Shown: positions 452 to 26,722 of the stretch, one piece after another
How the letters are laid out: each line of letters begins with the position of its first letter
How positions within the stretch are numbered: position 1 is the first letter of the stretch
NCBI GenBank assembly: GCA_903839535.1
Contig: CAIMCT010000556.1
Span: forward strand, 1-33,069
Source of the DNA: an uncultured Desulfobacteraceae bacterium
Lineage (GTDB): Bacteria; Desulfobacterota; Desulfobacteria; Desulfobacterales; Desulfatirhabdiaceae
Direction of reading: 5' to 3'
DNA length: 33,069 nt
Notes under the pieces: generated by a model
The model's input: the letters and a program-made list of their open reading frames with translations, nothing else
Databases searched by the model: none
Told to the model about the DNA's origin: nothing
Position numbers and translations under genes: made by a program

Positions 452-664
452 TTGATGAAAATGCTATTGTAAACAAAAATTAAAATTTGTCAACAATAAA
501 AATCAACGATTGCAACTTCATCAAAACTCCTAAGGTCGTTAATCAGAAACGAAACGCATCTAAAGACCTTACATCTGACACATATAAACCAATTTATACG
601 CAAATTGCAAGCACAAATTTCAAACAAAAGCATTTTTTGTTCGATACGATTACAAATGAAATTT

Positions 665-843
665 GTATCATTCTTAAATTTCATCGACCAATCTAAAATA
701 CTAAAATCGAAAGGATTCCCCCCCCTTTGAAAAAGGGGGGGGATTTAGGAGGCAGTCCACCTGAAAAATCCCCCTTGATCCCCCTTTTCCAAAGGGGGAA
801 GTATCATTTTCATGTATGGGGTGATCGAATTTAAGAAACACAC
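665..843. mobile_element. MITE-like non-autonomous element, copy 1
   Basis: This 179 bp element begins GTATCATTCTTAAATT and ends AATTTAAGAAACACAC, so its ends are imperfect inverted repeats. It is flanked on both sides by the same 8 bp, TGAAATTT (657-664 and 844-851), as expected of a target-site duplication. The interior carries C-run/G-run palindromes around CCCCTTTGAAAAAGGGG and CCCCTTTTCCAAAGGGG. A related copy at 25111-25306 has its own distinct 8 bp duplication. There is no coding capacity, so it would have to be moved by a transposase elsewhere in the genome. The transposase family cannot be named from this window. Confidence 0.85.
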
Positions 844-922
844 TGAAATTTTATTCTTGAGCGATGACAAAAGGAATTTTATTGACTCAATAACGATAAT
901 GTGATTATCTAAAAAGGTTAAA

Positions 923-984: not shown

Positions 985-1119
985 ATGAAAAGAACATATC
1001 AACCCAGTCAGATCAAGAAATCACGTACCCACGGCTTTTTATCGCGCATGGCTACCAAACAAGGTCGAAAATTGATTAACCGCAGGCGAGCCAAAGGCCG
1101 GAAACGATTGACGGTTTAA
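985..1119 (+). CDS. rpmH: 50S ribosomal protein L34
   Basis: A 44-residue, highly basic protein beginning [18 protein letters not shown] and ending [12 protein letters not shown], which is the signature of bacterial L34 at its usual length. L34 is a small protein of the large ribosomal subunit that binds 23S rRNA. The start codon at 985 follows a GAGGG purine stretch at a suitable distance. It opens the conserved rpmH-rnpA-yidD-yidC-jag-mnmE cluster, which in most bacteria lies near the chromosomal replication origin. The upstream 140 bp separates it from the MITE-like element, which does not appear to disrupt its promoter. Confidence 0.97.
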
Positions 1120-10190: not shown

Positions 10191-11597
10191 ATGGCCATGA
10201 AACACCAAAAAATTAAATTATGGCGACAAATTAAATTATGGGTGACTGTGGCAGTCGCCGTAGTTTTTTGGACCATTGGCGCCGGCTTTTTCCGAGATCT
10301 TTCAGCAACAACAGATGAAACATACAAAGGGCTCAAGTTGTTTTCCGATGTCATCGAGCTGATTGAAAAGAACTATGTAGAACCAGCAGACACAAAAAAA
10401 CTCATCGAAGACGCTATTCAGGGAATGGTTCACGGGCTTGACCCGCATTCCTCATTGCTTTCACCGGAGGACTACAAGGAGCTTCAGGTCGATACACAGG
10501 GGGAATTTACAGGTATCGGCGTCAGCATTACCACCCGTGATGGAATGGTTACGGTGGTATCCGCCATTCAAGGGACACCGGCTTACAAGGCCGGTATTAA
10601 ATCCGGGGATATTATCATCAAGATCGGAACAGAGGTTACAAAAAATCTTAGGGATGCCGTAAGCCGTATTCGCGGACCCAAGGGAAGCAAGATTATCGTC
10701 ACCCTTATGCGGGAAGGTGCTCCGGAACCTCTTGAATTTGTGCTGGTTCGCGATGTGATTCCAATTGAAAGCGTCCGTTCCCTGAGCCTTAAACCTGGAT
10801 ACGGATATATCTGGATTACCAATTTCAGGGACAATACGACTCCCGATTTGGTCTCAGCTCTGGAAAAATTGGAGTCCGGCCCAACGCCCCTAAAAGGACT
10901 CATCCTTGATCTTCGAAACAACCCTGGCGGGCTTTTGAATCAATCCATCGAGGTATCCGACCTGTTTCTGGAAAAAGGAACGATTCTGTCCATAAAGGGA
11001 AGACAGGAAAAAAATACCAAGGTTTTTACAGCGCACGCCAATGTTGTTAAACGCAATTATCCAATGGTTGTATTAATCAACGGCGGCAGCGCCAGTGCAT
11101 CGGAAATTGTTGCCGGCGCGCTTCAGGATCATCAACGGGCCTTGGTCATGGGGACTACTTCCTTTGGAAAAGGATCCGTGCAGAATGTTGAAGCACTTCG
11201 GGATGGCTACGGGCTTAAACTGACCATAGCCAGGTACTTTACGCCAAGCGGCAGATCCATACAGGCCAAAGGAATTGAACCCGATATCGAGGTCAAGCAA
11301 GAGCCTGTCCGCATCAAAGAAAAACCAGGGCGCGAACCCATGTTGATGCCAAAAGAAAAAGATCTGGAAAACCATCTTGACGCAGAACCTGGCAAGGGGC
11401 AAAAAAATACAAAGGAACCCAAGCCGTCACCGGATAAAAATTTAGACAAAAATCCGGTGCCTTCACAGCCGGGACATGAGGAAGAAAGTGTTGACGGATT
11501 GGTAAGTCCTGAAAGGCTGGAAATGGATACACAGGTAAAAAGGGCGTTGGAAACATTGATCAGCTACGATATTTTTAAAGGCTTGCAGCAAAAATAG
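10191..11597 (+). CDS. ctpA: C-terminal processing peptidase, S41 family (CtpA)
   Basis: A periplasmic serine protease anchored by an N-terminal TM/signal segment (about 15-38, IKLWVTVAVAVVFWTIGAGF). The PDZ domain (about 100-175) includes GEFTGIGVSITTRDGMV and the PDZ core GIKSGDIIIKIG. The S41 catalytic region follows: INGGSASASEIVAGALQDH has the likely nucleophile Ser302, and GTTSFGKGSVQ has the general base Lys327, 25 residues apart as in CtpA/Prc. The C-terminal 90 residues are Lys/Pro/Glu-rich and poorly conserved. An AAGGAG ribosome binding site precedes the ATG. The order envC-ctpA-YibQ-type deacetylase is recurrent in proteobacteria and suggests a shared role in envelope turnover. 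Confidence 0.94.
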   Translation: MAMKHQKIKLWRQIKLWVTVAVAVVFWTIGAGFFRDLSATTDETYKGLKLFSDVIELIEKNYVEPADTKKLIEDAIQGMVHGLDPHSSLLSPEDYKELQVDTQGEFTGIGVSITTRDGMVTVVSAIQGTPAYKAGIKSGDIIIKIGTEVTKNLRDAVSRIRGPKGSKIIVTLMREGAPEPLEFVLVRDVIPIESVRSLSLKPGYGYIWITNFRDNTTPDLVSALEKLESGPTPLKGLILDLRNNPGGLLNQSIEVSDLFLEKGTILSIKGRQEKNTKVFTAHANVVKRNYPMVVLINGGSASASEIVAGALQDHQRALVMGTTSFGKGSVQNVEALRDGYGLKLTIARYFTPSGRSIQAKGIEPDIEVKQEPVRIKEKPGREPMLMPKEKDLENHLDAEPGKGQKNTKEPKPSPDKNLDKNPVPSQPGHEEESVDGLVSPERLEMDTQVKRALETLISYDIFKGLQQK

Positions 11598-14655: not shown

Positions 14656-16602
14656 ATGAAAAAAACATTGATAAGTACTTTAGGCTTTATTATTTTGATG
14701 CTTAATGCAATTGCATGGGCCGTGCCGGTGCCGAACACCGGACAAAGCAAATGCTATGATATGGACGGAAATGTAATCATCTGCCCCTCGCCCGGTCAGG
14801 CTCTTTACGGCCAGGATGCCTGCTACAGCATCAACCCGATGTCCTACACCAAGTTGGACGGCAGCGGTAAAGCGCTGCCGGATTCGGACCTGTCATGGGT
14901 TATGATAATGGACAATATTACTGGCCTAATATGGGAAAATAAGACGGACGATGGTAAAATCCATGACAAGGATAACAAATACACTTGGTACGACAGCAAT
15001 CCGGCTACCAACGGTGGCAATGCCGGAACACCGGGTGACGGCACGACGAATACCGAATACTTTATTAAAACCCTGAATGATGCGAATTATGGCGGATATA
15101 AGGACTGGCGGCTGCCCACCATCAACGAACTTGCTTCGATCGTCAATTATGATATTTCGTATCCTGGACCAACAATAAATATTAAGTATTTTCCTGATAC
15201 CATGGCATCCTCTTATTGGTCATCTAACACCAACACGAACAATACGACTCTCGCGTGGGGTGGGAGCTTTTCCGGCTTGGACTACGACTACAAATACAGT
15301 AAAAGCACCAATTACCATGTCCGTGCCGTTCGTAGTGGACAACCAGGATCATCAGTGAGTCATTTGGCTATTGGATCATTTGATGCTGTTGACAGCGGGT
15401 TGATATATGATGCATCGACAACTATCGGCAGTTATACGGATAACAAAGATGGTACAGTTACAGATAATTCTACTGGCCTGACTTGGCAGCAAGATGGTTA
15501 TTCCAAAACAAATACATGGGAGTTGGCGCTAGTCTATTGTGAAGAGCTGAATCTTGGCGGCTATTCGGACTGGAGACTCCCTACCATCAAGGAATTACGT
15601 AGCCTGGTAGATTACAGCCGCAATAATCCTGCAATCAATACTATGTACTTTCCGGATACAGTTTCGTCCTTTTATTGGGCATCAACTACCTACACGCTCA
15701 ATACAGCTAGTGCGTGGGGAATGTCCTTGTACGATGGCGATGACTACAACACCAATAAGAACCACGGCAACTATGTCCGCGCTGTTCGTGGTGGGCAGTC
15801 ATTGGATCTCCTAGTAAGTCCATCCAGTCGAGCTGTTTCGAAAGATGCTGGTGTAACCACGTTCAGTGTTTCCAACACCGGAACTAAACCCATGCCTTGG
15901 ACAGCCGCAGTAATATCTGGTGGCGGTTGGCTTTCGATCACATCGGGTTCCAGCGGTACGGATACAGGAACTATCATCTGCTCATTTACTCCCAATACCA
16001 GCACCTCGCCCCGAACTGCCACCGTCCGGGTAACAGTAACCGGTGCAACGGGAAGCCCCAAGGTGGATGTGACGGTAATACAGGCAGCAACGCCGATGCC
16101 AACTCCAACTCCAGCTCCGACACCAACTCCAGCTCCGACACCAACTCCAGCTCCGACACCAACTCCAGCTCCGACACCAACTCCAACTCCGACACCAACT
16201 CCAGCTCCGACACCAACTCCAGCTCCGACACCAACTCCAGCTCCGACACCAACTCCTACTCCAACGCCAACTCCTACTCCTACTCCCATAATTGGATCAA
16301 ATTCAATTGATGAGATTGATATGGTCAAGATTACGGATATGTCGGGTTCGCTTCCTGTTGGTGGTGGGGCTGTCACTGTCACGGCATGGGATAAAGACGG
16401 AAAGCAGCTCACAGCGGCAACTGGTGCCTCGCCGTTGTCAATCATCAATCACGGAACCACCAGCATTACTGGTAAAGACCTTGAGGACAGATTCACCGCT
16501 GGCACTCCGGCAGCTTATACCTTTTCAGTCGGATCTTCGAAAAGGTTTATCACCAACATCACTAACAGCACTGGAGGCACAGTTAAGGTACCCATTATTT
16601 AG
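14656..16602 (+). CDS. secreted multidomain protein with two DUF1566 domains, 5' part up to an in-frame amber
   Basis: An AAAAAGGAAAA ribosome binding site and a clear signal peptide ([22 protein letters not shown]) show export. Two DUF1566/Lcl C-terminal domains follow (about 90-228 and 255-380). Each has TGLxW, GGYxDWRLPTIxEL, YFPDT, (Y)YWxS/A, and a YH/NYVRAVR end. Next is a BACON-like beta domain (about 385-478), a Thr-Pro-Ala-Pro linker (about 482-545), and the first of four roughly 100-residue repeats. Codon 649 is TAG; the same frame then stays open for 340 more codons to 17625 with three more copies of the repeat, so this is probably the truncated product of a 989-residue protein. Function unknown; DUF1566 modules are frequent in surface proteins of environmental bacteria. 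Confidence 0.85.
16105..16248 (+). repeat. eight 18 bp tandem repeats encoding TPAPTP units
   Basis: Eight consecutive copies of an 18 bp unit (CCAACTCCAGCTCCGACA). Seven are identical, and the fifth (16177-16194) has one G-to-A change giving Thr for Ala. Less regular Thr-Pro codons continue to 16287. Because the unit is a multiple of three, copy-number changes would alter linker length without shifting frame. Confidence 0.95.
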
Positions 16603-17701: not shown

Positions 17702-18350
17702 TGACCGATGTCTCGGATTTCGATATCAGGCTTGTAATCTTGCCAATCTGGGTGCATTGGTGGATGTCAAGTTTTACTTTGAAGGTATCATGATTCATCC
17801 CCAGTTGATGACGGTAAGAGATATTCGGCAGTTGAAGCAACTGATTCAGGTGGTGAAACTGCCCAAAACCCCGAATGATATATTGAACATTTTGGATACA
17901 AAACCGAATTTCTTCTGCGGGGTAGGAAAACCGGACTGGACATTGCGTTCACAATGGCTACAGAAGCGCTTCAATTTCATATCGAAGGGCTGCTTGAAGA
18001 TGGAGAATCCCTTCCCTTCCATGGCGATGTATACTGCGAACCGGCATAATTTTACGTTTTTGATCCCCCACCCCAACCCTCCCCCGCTGAGAGAGGGAGT
18101 TTATGAAAAGCGCAGATTATGCCAGTTCGCAGTATAGTAGACATTGGAGACAATGAAGTCGGAACATTTATTATACAAATCAGTTTTCATTCGCAGTTAA
18201 AGATCACAGCGTTAAATGGAAGGATGCACCTGACATAGGTGTTACCAATAGCAGGTCAAAATCTATCTGGCATACTGCGGTCCGTATGAATTTGTGCAAA
18301 CTCCTCCATACATGGGTAATTCATAAATTTATCCATTCTCAAGTATATAT
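17702..18350. pseudogene. mostly non-coding stretch with a possible HicB-like antitoxin relic
   Basis: No intact gene is supported. In one plus-strand frame about 17923-18049 reads KTGLDIAFTMATEALQ then FHIEGLLEDGESLPF, ending at a TAA. This resembles the C-terminal helix of HicB-type antitoxins (EALxxHxEGLLEDGE), but there is no start codon, no beta-sheet core and no hicA toxin, so at most it is a decayed fragment. A 126-codon frame at 17757-18137 overlaps it in another phase and has no recognisable features. At about 18062-18105 a short C-rich element (CCCCAACCCTCCCCCGCTGAGAGAGGGAG) resembles one at 32824-32853. Confidence 0.3.
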
Positions 18351-22486: not shown

Positions 22487-23932
22487 ATGCACAGAAATCC
22501 GCTTTTTTTATCGAGACTTTTGATTATCCTGAATCTGATGTTTCTGATTCAATGTCATTCGTTCCAGGCAGTCGCCTCAGAGAATCGCGTGGCGCTGGTG
22601 ATTGGCAACAGCGCCTACCAGAACGCGCCTAACCTTGCCAATCCCCGAAACGATGCAACAGAGATAGGAAAGGTTTTGAAGCGCATCGGGTTTGACGTTG
22701 ATGTGGTTTTGGATGCCACAAAAACAGAGATGGATCAGGCACTGAGGCGATTTGGAAACAAGCTGGAAGGGGCAAGCGCAGCCGTTTTTTTTTATTCCGG
22801 GCACGGAATCCAAGTGGATGGCAATAATTATATTCTGCCCATCAATAGTGCTTTGAAAAACGAACGTGATCTGCACTGGGATTCCTGTGATCTGACCACT
22901 GTGTTGAAGCAGATGGAAGGTCATAATCGGGTGAATTTGCTGTTTCTGGATGCTTGCCGGGACAACCCGCTGTCGCAGACATTGGCCAGAGGCATGGGAG
23001 AAAGCAGATCATCCGCAATTGGAAGAGGACTCGCGCCGATGAAAGCCACAGCCGGAACAATGATATCCTATTCGACCAAAGAGGGCGAAGTGGCGGCGGA
23101 TGGAAAAGGAAAACACAGCCCCTATACCGAGGCCCTATTAAAACATATTCAAACACCAGGTGTGGAGATCGGCCTGATGCTTCGAAAAGTCAGACAAGAG
23201 GTGATTTCTTCCACAAATAACAAACAGGTTCCTTGGGAGTATGGATCGCTTCTGGGTGAGTTTTATTTCTCCGGACCGGTGACAATTCAGGTGCAGCCAG
23301 AAGCGGATAAATCACCTTCTGGATCAAAAATTGAGGCTCTGTATTGGGAATCCATCATGAGTGAAACCGATCCGGATGTATTTGAGGATTATTTAATAAA
23401 ATATCCAGGTGGTGCATTTCGAGAAATCGCAAAAAGAAAAATCGAAAAACTCAATAAAGGCGGCTCAAAGCCATCTACAACGAAAGCTGTTCCACAAAGT
23501 GATCATACAAAACCGTTTGTAGTGAATGACGTTCCACGGAGTGATCAGACAAAGCCGTCTGTAGTGAATGACGTTGCGCAAAATGATCAGACAAAACCGT
23601 CTGTAGTGGATAACGTTGCACAAAGTGATCATACAAAACCGTCTGTGGATAGTGTTACACAAAGTGATCATACAAAGCCATCCATAGAGGATGTCATTCC
23701 ACAAAATGATCAGACAAAGCCTTCCGGCAAGTTAAAGATAACCAGTAATCCCCCAGGTGCAGATATTTATATGGATGAAAAATATATGGGCGTAACACCT
23801 GCGGAACTGGTCGATGTGCCGGCTGGCACATATACACTCATCCTTAAAATGGAAGGATTTGACGAATGGACGGATACTGTCACTGTAAAAGCCGGGAAAA
23901 CTGTTTCTATAAACGATGGAAGCAAGCAATAG
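22487..23932 (+). CDS. exported caspase-family (C14) protein with PEGA domain
   Basis: A 481-residue protein with an AGAGGTG ribosome binding site. The N-terminal signal segment spans about 6-30 (LFLSRLLIILNLMFLIQ); the FLIQC at its end is not a good lipobox. Next is a caspase p20-like domain (about 33-265): RVALVIGNSAYQNAPNLANP, YSGHG with His106, and LDACRDN with Cys157, so the catalytic dyad is intact. Residues about 280-325 are a linker. Residues about 327-412 carry six imperfect 13-14-residue repeats (SDHTKPSVVNDV type). The C-terminal PEGA domain (about 413-475: GKLKITSNPPGADIYMDEKY, MGVTPAEL) is an extracytoplasmic beta domain. It lies 39 bp after the CHAT gene on the same strand and is probably its partner. 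Confidence 0.9.
   Translation: MHRNPLFLSRLLIILNLMFLIQCHSFQAVASENRVALVIGNSAYQNAPNLANPRNDATEIGKVLKRIGFDVDVVLDATKTEMDQALRRFGNKLEGASAAVFFYSGHGIQVDGNNYILPINSALKNERDLHWDSCDLTTVLKQMEGHNRVNLLFLDACRDNPLSQTLARGMGESRSSAIGRGLAPMKATAGTMISYSTKEGEVAADGKGKHSPYTEALLKHIQTPGVEIGLMLRKVRQEVISSTNNKQVPWEYGSLLGEFYFSGPVTIQVQPEADKSPSGSKIEALYWESIMSETDPDVFEDYLIKYPGGAFREIAKRKIEKLNKGGSKPSTTKAVPQSDHTKPFVVNDVPRSDQTKPSVVNDVAQNDQTKPSVVDNVAQSDHTKPSVDSVTQSDHTKPSIEDVIPQNDQTKPSGKLKITSNPPGADIYMDEKYMGVTPAELVDVPAGTYTLILKMEGFDEWTDTVTVKAGKTVSINDGSKQ
23468..23725 (+). repeat. six ~42 bp tandem repeats inside the caspase gene
   Basis: Units of 39-42 bp, built around AGTGATCATACAAAACCGTC, encode (P/A)Q(S/N)D(H/Q)TKPSVV(N/D)(D/N)V. Differences between copies are mostly base substitutions that keep the frame. 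They form a flexible spacer between the protease and PEGA domains. Confidence 0.85.
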
Positions 23933-24688: not shown

Positions 24689-25102
24689 TCATGATTCCTC
24701 ACATATCCGGTAAAATCAGTAGTATTGCGCCAGACACGCTGCTGGACACCCCTGAAAAGCGCCGCATAGCTCAGTCGTCCAATTGCCGTGAGGGAAAAAA
24801 TGTTTGTCGATGTTCCTGAACACATAGTTTCTTAAGCATTGCAAAAATTATCGGCAGCTCATCAACTATTTCAATCATGTTAGAATATAACCCTCAAATT
24901 TGTAGGTTTTATGATGACTATAACAAGATATTAATTCTTTGTTCAGCAAAATCGAACGTAATTATAAAATGTTAAAAAAATAAGCAAAATGTGAGGATTG
25001 AGTGATAGATGCAAGATTTATTTTGACTGCTCATCTCTCATAGAAATAAAACCGGGTGTGAATTTTTGGACTTTTTCCAATACATCGTATAAGATAATCA
25101 CA
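24689..25102. other. intergenic region between thiE and the second MITE
   Basis: I see no gene, RNA fold or strong repeat here. Both strands contain short open frames without ribosome binding sites or recognisable domains, and the second half is AT-rich. Confidence 0.4.
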
Positions 25103-25110
25103 ATATTTTT

Positions 25111-25306
25111 GTATCATTCTTAAATTTCATCGAACGCTCTCGTGCCCGCTAATCACAACTAAAATCGAAAGGATTCCCCCCTTTGAAAAAGGGGGGCCAG
25201 GGGGGAGTTATGAGTCTATCTACCTGAAAAATCCCCCTCGATCCCCTTTTTCCAAAGGGGGAAGTATCATTTTCATATATGGGGTGATCGAGTTTAAGAA
25301 AGATAC
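25111..25306. mobile_element. MITE-like non-autonomous element, copy 2
   Basis: This 196 bp copy runs from GTATCATTCTTAAAT to GTTTAAGAAAGATAC. The first 15 bases of its two ends match as inverted repeats at 13 positions. The flanks are an 8 bp direct repeat, ATATTTTT (25103-25110 and 25307-25314). It shares both ends and the C-run/G-run interior with copy 1 at 665-843, but a segment of about 25 bp near the left end and the loop between the palindromes differ. It stops 33 bp before the asnS start, so it may supply or separate promoter sequence. Confidence 0.85.
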
Positions 25307-25339
25307 ATATTTTTTATAAAATCATAACGAGGTCTATCT

Positions 25340-26722
25340 ATGAATCGCATAAAAATTAACAGACTGCTCCGATCCAAAATTCCAATGAATCAGGTCCTGG
25401 TAAACGGATGGGTCAGAACCCGCCGTGATTCCAAGGGGTTTTCATTTATCGAAGTCAATGACGGGTCCTGCCTGAAAAATATTCAGATCATCGCAGCCAG
25501 CAACCTGCCAAATTACGATGAGATTCAACGTTTGACCACTGGATCAGCGGTCAGCATCTCCGGCAGTCTGGTTCCGTCACAGGGCAAAGGCCAGAGCTGG
25601 GAAATCACCGCTGCCCGGATATTGGTCATCGGTCAGGCCCCGGAAACTTTTCCGCTTCAGAAAAAACGCCACAGTGATGAGTATCTCAGAACCATCGCCC
25701 ACCTAAGACCCCGAACCAACAAGTATGGCGCAGTGTTTCGCATACGATCCGAACTGTCTTACGCCATTCATACGTTTTTCAGAGACCGTGGCTTTCGTTA
25801 CATACATTCTCCAATCATCACAGGTTCAGACTGTGAAGGCGCCGGAGAAATGTTCAGGGTAACGACGCTGGATATCAAGAATCCGGCTTTAAAAGACAGG
25901 GGACTGGATGCTTCGCAGGATTTTTTTGGCAAAGAGGTCAGCCTAACAGTTTCAGGACAGTTATCCGCAGAAATGTTTGCACTGGCGCTGGGAGATGTCT
26001 ATACATTCGGCCCAACGTTTCGGGCTGAGAATTCCAATACCCGCCGTCATGCCGCAGAATTCTGGATGATAGAGCCGGAAATGACTTTTTGTGATCTTTC
26101 AGAAAACATGAATCTCGGCGAGGAACTAATTCGCTACCTTATCAGCCATGTACTTCGGGAGTGCCGGGAGGACATGGAACTTTTTGGAAATTTTGTGGAC
26201 AAAACCCTGATGGAGACCTTGAATCACATTTTATCATCCGATTTTGTAAGGCTACCTTATGCTGAAGCAGTGGAAATCCTGAAAACGTCAAAAGTTTCGT
26301 TTGACTATCCCGTTACTTATGGCATCGATCTTCAATCCGAACACGAAAAATATCTGACAGAAACCCATTTTAAAAAGCCGGTCATTCTCCATGATTATCC
26401 CAAAACCATCAAACCGTTTTACATGCGGTTAAATGCGGATCAGCAGACTGTAGCGGCGATGGACATTCTGGTTCCTGGTATTGGCGAGATCGTTGGAGGA
26501 AGTCAGAGGGAAGAACGTCTAAATGTGCTTGAGGCCAGAATGGGTGAAATGGGACTCCTCAAAGAAAACTACTGGTGGTATCTGGATTCCAGGCGTTACG
26601 GATCAGCGCCGCACAGCGGTTTTGGGATGGGATTTGAGCGATTGATCATGATGATAACCGGAATTACCAATATTCGCGATGTCATTCCATTTCCCAGAAC
26701 CCCGGGTAATATTGATTTTTAA
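25340..26722 (+). CDS. asnS: asparaginyl-tRNA synthetase
   Basis: A class IIb aminoacyl-tRNA synthetase that charges tRNA-Asn. The N-terminal OB-fold anticodon-binding domain (about 15-105) shows [20 protein letters not shown]. The catalytic domain has class II motif 2 ([20 protein letters not shown]) and motif 3 ([12 protein letters not shown]), plus the asparagine-type region [13 protein letters not shown] (about 350-362) that distinguishes AsnRS from AspRS. At 460 residues it is of normal length for the bacterial enzyme. An AACGAGG purine stretch precedes the ATG. The presence of AsnRS implies direct Asn charging, so the genome need not rely on the amidotransferase route for Asn-tRNA. Confidence 0.97.

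Follow-up and report, generated by a model that had tools for sequence, protein, structure and literature searches.

A MITE family with 8-bp target duplications beside rpmH and asnS, probably moved by an IS66-related transposase

The window analysed here is positions 1 to 33,069 of contig CAIMCT010000556.1, a stretch of 33,069 nucleotides from an uncultured Desulfobacteraceae bacterium (Desulfatirhabdiaceae). Two short elements of the MITE type lie in it in the same direction: copy 1 upstream of rpmH, and copy 2 upstream of a class II aminoacyl-tRNA synthetase gene that we take, by resemblance, to be asnS. The features of the two sites are as follows.

657..664, plus strand: left target duplication of copy 1, TGAAATTT (sequence and duplication test).
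665..843, plus strand: MITE copy 1, 179 bp; left terminal inverted repeat (TIR) GTATCATTCTTAAATTTCATCG; right TIR decayed, GTGTGTTTCTTAAATT on the minus strand.
844..851, plus strand: right target duplication of copy 1, TGAAATTT (sequence and duplication test).
882..910, plus strand: promoter-like TTGACT-N17-TTATCT, a putative promoter with counterparts in four relatives.
985..1119, plus strand: rpmH (ribosomal protein L34), downstream of copy 1; Pfam PF00468 (Ribosomal_L34).
25066..25095, plus strand: promoter-like TTGGAC-N18-TAAGAT, upstream of copy 2, a putative promoter with counterparts in three congeners.
25103..25110, plus strand: left target duplication of copy 2, ATATTTTT (sequence and duplication test).
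25111..25306, plus strand: MITE copy 2, 196 bp (sequence and duplication test).
25307..25314, plus strand: right target duplication of copy 2, ATATTTTT (sequence and duplication test).
25340..26722, plus strand: class II aminoacyl-tRNA synthetase, D/K/N type; Pfam PF00152 and PF01336.

The first-pass annotation had described 665-843 as a transposable element flanked by a true 8-bp duplication, inserted about 140 bp from the rpmH start, and sharing its ends with a second copy that has a duplication of its own. Each of these points holds. TGAAATTT stands at both 657-664 and 844-851; 141 bp separate the element from the ATG at 985; and the left ends of the two copies are identical at 16 of 16 bases, with ATATTTTT at 25103-25110 and again at 25307-25314. 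The right ends, read inward, are less regular: GTGTGTTTCTTAAATT in copy 1 departs from the left-end motif at three bases, and GTATCTTTCTTAAACT in copy 2 at two. With up to three mismatches allowed, this motif occurs four times in the window; shuffled sequences gave 0.54 on average and never more than 3. The copies can be aligned end to end, apart from blocks of 12 and 5 bases that are unique to copy 2. At either copy, the only open reading frame to reach 80 aa is 85 aa long and overlaps part of copy 1.

The window's genome, a draft of 580 contigs and 5.66 Mb, contains a large family of such elements. At up to one mismatch, the end pattern is found at 120 places genome-wide, compared with one for a reversed control. 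The right-end pattern, with at most one mismatch, matches 64 places (49 exactly and 15 with one mismatch); copy 1 of the window escapes this pattern because of its three mismatches, so the genome-wide search proposed at first pass yields at least 65 copies or remnants, some of them truncated. Many copies sit at contig ends. The 32 complete copies, drawn from fetched loci and not from the whole genome, measure 133-302 bp, and the element is typically about 180-200 bp long. Of the first 16 bases, 15 are shared by typical left and right ends, which thus form terminal inverted repeats. By a simple ORF-based call, copies are intergenic in nearly all cases; an ORF of 140 aa overlaps one copy, and ORFs of 70-99 aa overlap nine more.

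Two complete copies with flanks shorter than 8 bases were left out; among the other 30, the 8-bp duplication is perfect in 18, has one mismatch in four, and is missing in eight (4-7 mismatches). As a control, each left flank was matched with right flanks from all copies but its own. None of these 870 pairs shows a perfect octamer and three show a one-mismatch octamer, which rules out chance as the source of the duplications. Apart from being rich in A and T, the duplicated octamers vary. Copies whose flanking 8-mers are not duplicated, or whose boundaries differ, had been named beforehand as evidence against a transposable element, and they are a minority, 8 of 30. Recombination, decay, or assembly may account for these eight; no octamer swaps among them were seen by eye in the flank table. 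Over aligned bases, the 32 complete copies share 85-97% identity with one another, and the median of 92% points to some age.

The window and the fetched loci contain other repeats as well. Another short element with inverted repeats, TACTGCGAAC...GTTCGCAGTA, lies between TA bases at 18030-18136 of the window, and 30 distinct ends of it occur in the fetched loci. It is also nested within two MITE copies, the 302-bp one at G000:C298 (L106) and the 293-bp one at G000:C522 (L093 663-955); set beside the MITE consensus, these suggest a TA duplication. Two tandem repeats of the window lie within open reading frames: an 18-bp unit at 16049-16312 (ORF 14656-16602) and a 42-bp unit at 23480-23724 (ORF 22487-23932). 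Both unit lengths are divisible by three.

A search with the MITE end, one mismatch allowed, covered 94 genomes: that of the window and those most closely related to it. The end is matched in 29 of them, with 129 matches in the window's genome, eight in the same-genus genome G006, and 0-5 in each of the others. Outside these two genomes nearly all matches carry one mismatch, and the reversed control gives 0-3 matches per genome. Viral contigs gave neither an exact MITE end nor a relative of the insertion-sequence ORF introduced below, and plasmids gave none.

The rpmH site is matched in five of seven relatives searched, four of which were aligned. The interval from tRNA-Lys to rpmH lacks the MITE in three congeners (L279, L280, and L281); the fourth relative, L282, gives no alignment upstream. 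The asnS site is matched in six of seven relatives, and the three that were aligned (L284-L286) all lack the MITE. The flanking octamers are not kept in these relatives, so the comparison documents the absence of the element and not the original target. Taken with the site-specific octamers of most complete copies, absence from both sites in three congeners bears out the earlier view of a transposable element as opposed to a conserved intergenic motif. The family is thus short, devoid of a transposase gene, bounded by TIRs and a duplication of fixed length, dispersed, and absent from orthologous sites, as MITEs are.

A conserved intergenic motif, be it a REP-like palindrome, a terminator, or an RNA element, would account for the strong internal palindromes, for RNA folding better than that of shuffled sequence (z -3.6 and -5.0), and for terminator-like stems (3, against 0.3 and 0.5 in shuffles). 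Such a motif is extremely improbable, given octamer duplications particular to each site, three congeners without the element at both window sites, and neighbouring genes of no fixed orientation (20 versus 10 for the left neighbour and 15 versus 11 for the right, by the simple ORF-based call). Moreover, the only Rfam matches in the window are two tRNAs. The excess of terminator-like stems is a product of the internal palindromes and no proof of function. Nor is the core an independent REP-like repeat: in the fetched loci, 67 of 70 CCCCCTTT..AAAGGGGG palindromes have a MITE-end motif no more than 230 bases away. (A 36-bp part of the core, at 25174-25209 of the window, matches a site in Haemophilus phage SuMu at 94% identity, which perhaps reflects a widespread C-rich palindrome.)

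What the two insertions do to their neighbours was considered from conservation and folding. Both promoter calls, at 882-910 and 25066-25095, derive from conservation and are absent from the list of a consensus scan. The first of these stretches lies between copy 1 and rpmH, so the promoter is probably intact and the insertion at rpmH probably neutral. The second lies directly upstream of copy 2, which is therefore probably transcribed as part of the asnS 5' leader; the asnS start codon is 33 bp past the element. The RNA of copy 2 folds strongly (z -5.0) and terminator-like stems are present. The MITE does not appear to carry promoters of its own: promoter-like matches near the two copies number 1 against a shuffle mean of 1.8, and 1 against 1.4, and the simple ORF-based call finds no consistent orientation of neighbouring genes.

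The best explanation is that the family is a non-autonomous MITE, moved in trans by an IS66-related, single-ORF (ISBst12-like) transposase that makes 8-bp duplications; its probability is put at about 0.86. The case begins with the same-genus genome G006, the public MAG uncultured Desulfobacteraceae bacterium Loc090721-6m_bin-047. (The identification rests on the 2.58 kb taken from G006 contig C134, which recur unchanged in the named contig L090. L090 2500-3760, corresponding to G006:C134, holds a series of short ORFs that resemble one another (MQKIIARCWEDEEFKKRLMADPAKIL...) and look like leader peptides of modified peptides, and a 130-bp MITE with CGTATATA on both flanks lies between two of the small ORFs of L090.) Six left ends of an insertion sequence in G006 share the sequence GTATCATT(T/C)TTAAATTTTATGG; those on contigs of sufficient length continue into an ORF that begins with MTPENTTKILDSIQPE. 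One of these left ends is identical to the MITE end over 16 of 16 bases, and at 20 of 22 overall.

The right-end pattern in G006 matches 15 places, compared with two for a reversed control. These comprise the six left ends, two MITE ends, three right ends of the form GTATCGTTGTTAAA, and four places (C36, C89, C145, and C273) that were set aside as unrelated, judging from their sequence. Two of the right ends continue as TATCATGG to the contig ends; the third, in C170, diverges after 14 bases. The octamers at two of the three right ends (C170 included), GATATAAG and GATAACAC, are identical to those at two left ends, in 18 comparisons. The G006 element thus also makes 8-bp duplications. Its left ends run into contig ends, and its body was not found in the G006 assembly. 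An intact IS66-type ORF of the parent, in G006 or in the window's species, would lie between GTATCATTTTTAAATTTTATGG and GTATCGTTGTTAAATATCATGG ends.

The 67 N-terminal residues available from the G006 ORF give no Pfam match above cut-off by themselves. They have full-length homologues in G063 (47% identity) and G042 (42%), and both proteins match PF03050 (DDE_Tnp_IS66) above cut-off. This domain is found in seven of seven proteins tested (L212-L214, L247, L249, L250, and L263), at 36-64 bits with a cut-off of 23.1. The NCBI IS66 model NF033517 gives 92-116 bits in five of five tested, below its cut-off of 180, and for that reason the transposases are termed IS66-related.

Of 389 genomes belonging to the class, 32 gave a transposase match with an E value no higher than 1e-20, and 30 fetched loci were tested for ends. 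Twelve have inverted repeats that start GTA and a perfect 8-bp duplication: two, in G142 and G144, have GTATC ends (GTATCCTATTCA), and ten have GTAAC ends (L250, L251, L252, L254, L258, L260, L262, L263, L264, and L265). Six further elements have GTAAC ends without a perfect duplication (L253, L255, L257, L261, L267, and L271), and the remaining loci have no clear duplication or no clear ends. The full-length elements nearest the G006 ORF, those of G042 and G063, have clear GTATC repeats and no duplication in that register; G063 has a one-mismatch octamer one base inward of it. The G142 and G144 ends have only 8-9 of 16 bases in common with the MITE ends. These two elements are about 1.86 kb long with a transposase of about 1.65 kb, which implies a single ORF and leaves no room for tnpA or tnpB. 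A single ORF together with 8-bp duplications fits the ISBst12 group. The IS66-related group thus includes a same-genus member whose ends are nearly those of the MITE and whose duplications are of equal length.

The likeness between the MITE and the insertion sequences is confined to the terminal 16-22 bases. The MITE is therefore not a simple internal deletion derivative of the insertion-sequence ends observed, and would derive from an unsampled sister element, or from a sequence that acquired the ends. This confinement is also what a transposase of an unrelated family would predict, one with similar ends and an 8-bp duplication, with the IS66-type ends a coincidence; in addition, the assembly of the window's genome has no intact IS66-type element with such ends. 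Coincidence is quite improbable in the face of identity to one G006 end at all 16 terminal bases, a duplication of equal length, and, in the window's own genome, a broken homologue and similar end fragments.

That homologue is an ORF in contig C269, 84% identical to the G006 ORF over 67 aa, which stops after 98 codons and is preceded by the end GTATCATACTTAAATG. Further relic left ends lie in C129 and C440. Those of C269 and C129 are inside contigs, and C440 has a 62-bp stub next to a MITE. (L091, CAISJJ010000071.1, a contig assigned to a Bacteroidales MAG, is 99% identical to C440 over 1292 bp, and so is probably mis-binned.) Stretches resembling the G006 right end occur in C102 and C318; they run to contig ends and contain no open frame longer than 86 codons.

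Two other loci of the window's genome were considered as the parent and rejected. The sole longer match to an IS66 transposase, in C130, is 18% identical to the relevant group, and a lax scan found no matching pair of ends there. In C73, ends at 10241 and 13925 face each other 3.7 kb apart. The interval holds no transposase-like ORF but a 616-aa putative acyl-CoA dehydrogenase-like ORF, and the two ends seem to be one-ended remnants. Nearby, at G000:C73:14403-14867 (L092 5886-6383), a truncated ORF like the N-terminal part of an IS66-related transposase stands beside a MITE remnant.

The first-pass proposal to look for a transposase with the same terminal repeats and 8-bp duplications has thus led to a family, IS66-related and single-ORF, and to no intact copy with the same ends. 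The assembly of the window's genome contains no intact IS66-type transposase with MITE-like ends, and the element may by now be stranded there, its parent no longer present as an intact copy. This absence is weak evidence, because drafts often lack the bodies of repeated insertion sequences and the stretches in C102 and C318 reach contig ends. An element that is still mobile, its helper dropped as a repeat from a draft of 580 contigs (as bodies appear to drop out of G006), would also fit the perfect duplications of 18 of 30 copies. Such present mobility is a real possibility but a doubtful one, since all three insertion-sequence left ends (C269, C129, and C440) look like relics, C102 and C318 lack any frame above 86 codons, and the median copy identity of 92% points to some age.

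In the mechanism favoured here, the DDE transposase of an ISBst12-like insertion sequence would recognize the 16-22-bp TIRs of the MITE in trans and insert it into AT-rich, mostly intergenic DNA, where an 8-bp staggered cut would produce the 8-bp duplications. Presumably, the transposase acted before its copies in the window's genome decayed, and the MITE copies are now largely immobile. A more far-reaching version, in which an IS66/ISBst12-type MITE of at least 65 copies has outlived all intact copies of its transposase in this lineage and now forms the 5' leader of asnS, an essential tRNA-synthetase gene whose expression the strong hairpin and terminator-like stem may control, is improbable as a whole.

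ISDge4, of the ISBst12 group of IS66, is described as having a single ORF, GTAAC or GTGAC ends, and 8-bp direct repeats (PMC12898284). The presumed parent group resembles it, as there described, in its single ORF, its GTAAC or GTATC ends, and its 8-bp repeats. The MITE differs in lacking a transposase, and its GTATC.TTCTTAAATT ends, like those of the G006 insertion sequence, have diverged from GTAACTTCTCAATAA. Classical IS66 terminal repeats are given as starting GTAAGCG (PMC11946415). In contrast, the MITE, the G006 insertion sequence, and the G142 and G144 elements start GTATC, and the outer group starts GTAAC.

Geobacter was once classed with these bacteria. The Chunjie MITE of Geobacter uraniireducens is multi-copy, 178-235 bp at full length, and mostly intergenic (PMC10969869); the present family is likewise short, multi-copy, and mostly intergenic, a comparison made by description only. 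MITECca01 of Cardinium is lineage-specific and IS-derived, with 169 mostly intergenic copies that share mainly terminal repeats with a parent of the IS982 family, intact copies of which are reported in the Cardinium genome (PMC9769881). The present MITE is also mostly intergenic, and terminal repeats are its main likeness to its presumed parent; unlike that of MITECca01, this parent is related to IS66 and was recovered only as fragments. No IS66-derived MITE is described in the available text of PMC9769881, PMC3189936, PMC10969869, PMC3281130, or PMC9208149, and none was found in the open-licence literature, so that a prior report elsewhere is possible. The element is of an ordinary kind, with a parent family not found reported for MITEs in that literature.

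Together, these results link a MITE family to IS66-related transposases. Because many copies lie at contig ends, short-read assemblies of these bacteria are probably interrupted by repeats of this kind. Moreover, a MITE-rich genome and a same-genus genome with at least six copies of the insertion sequence form a pair for testing how MITEs multiply and how their helpers are lost.
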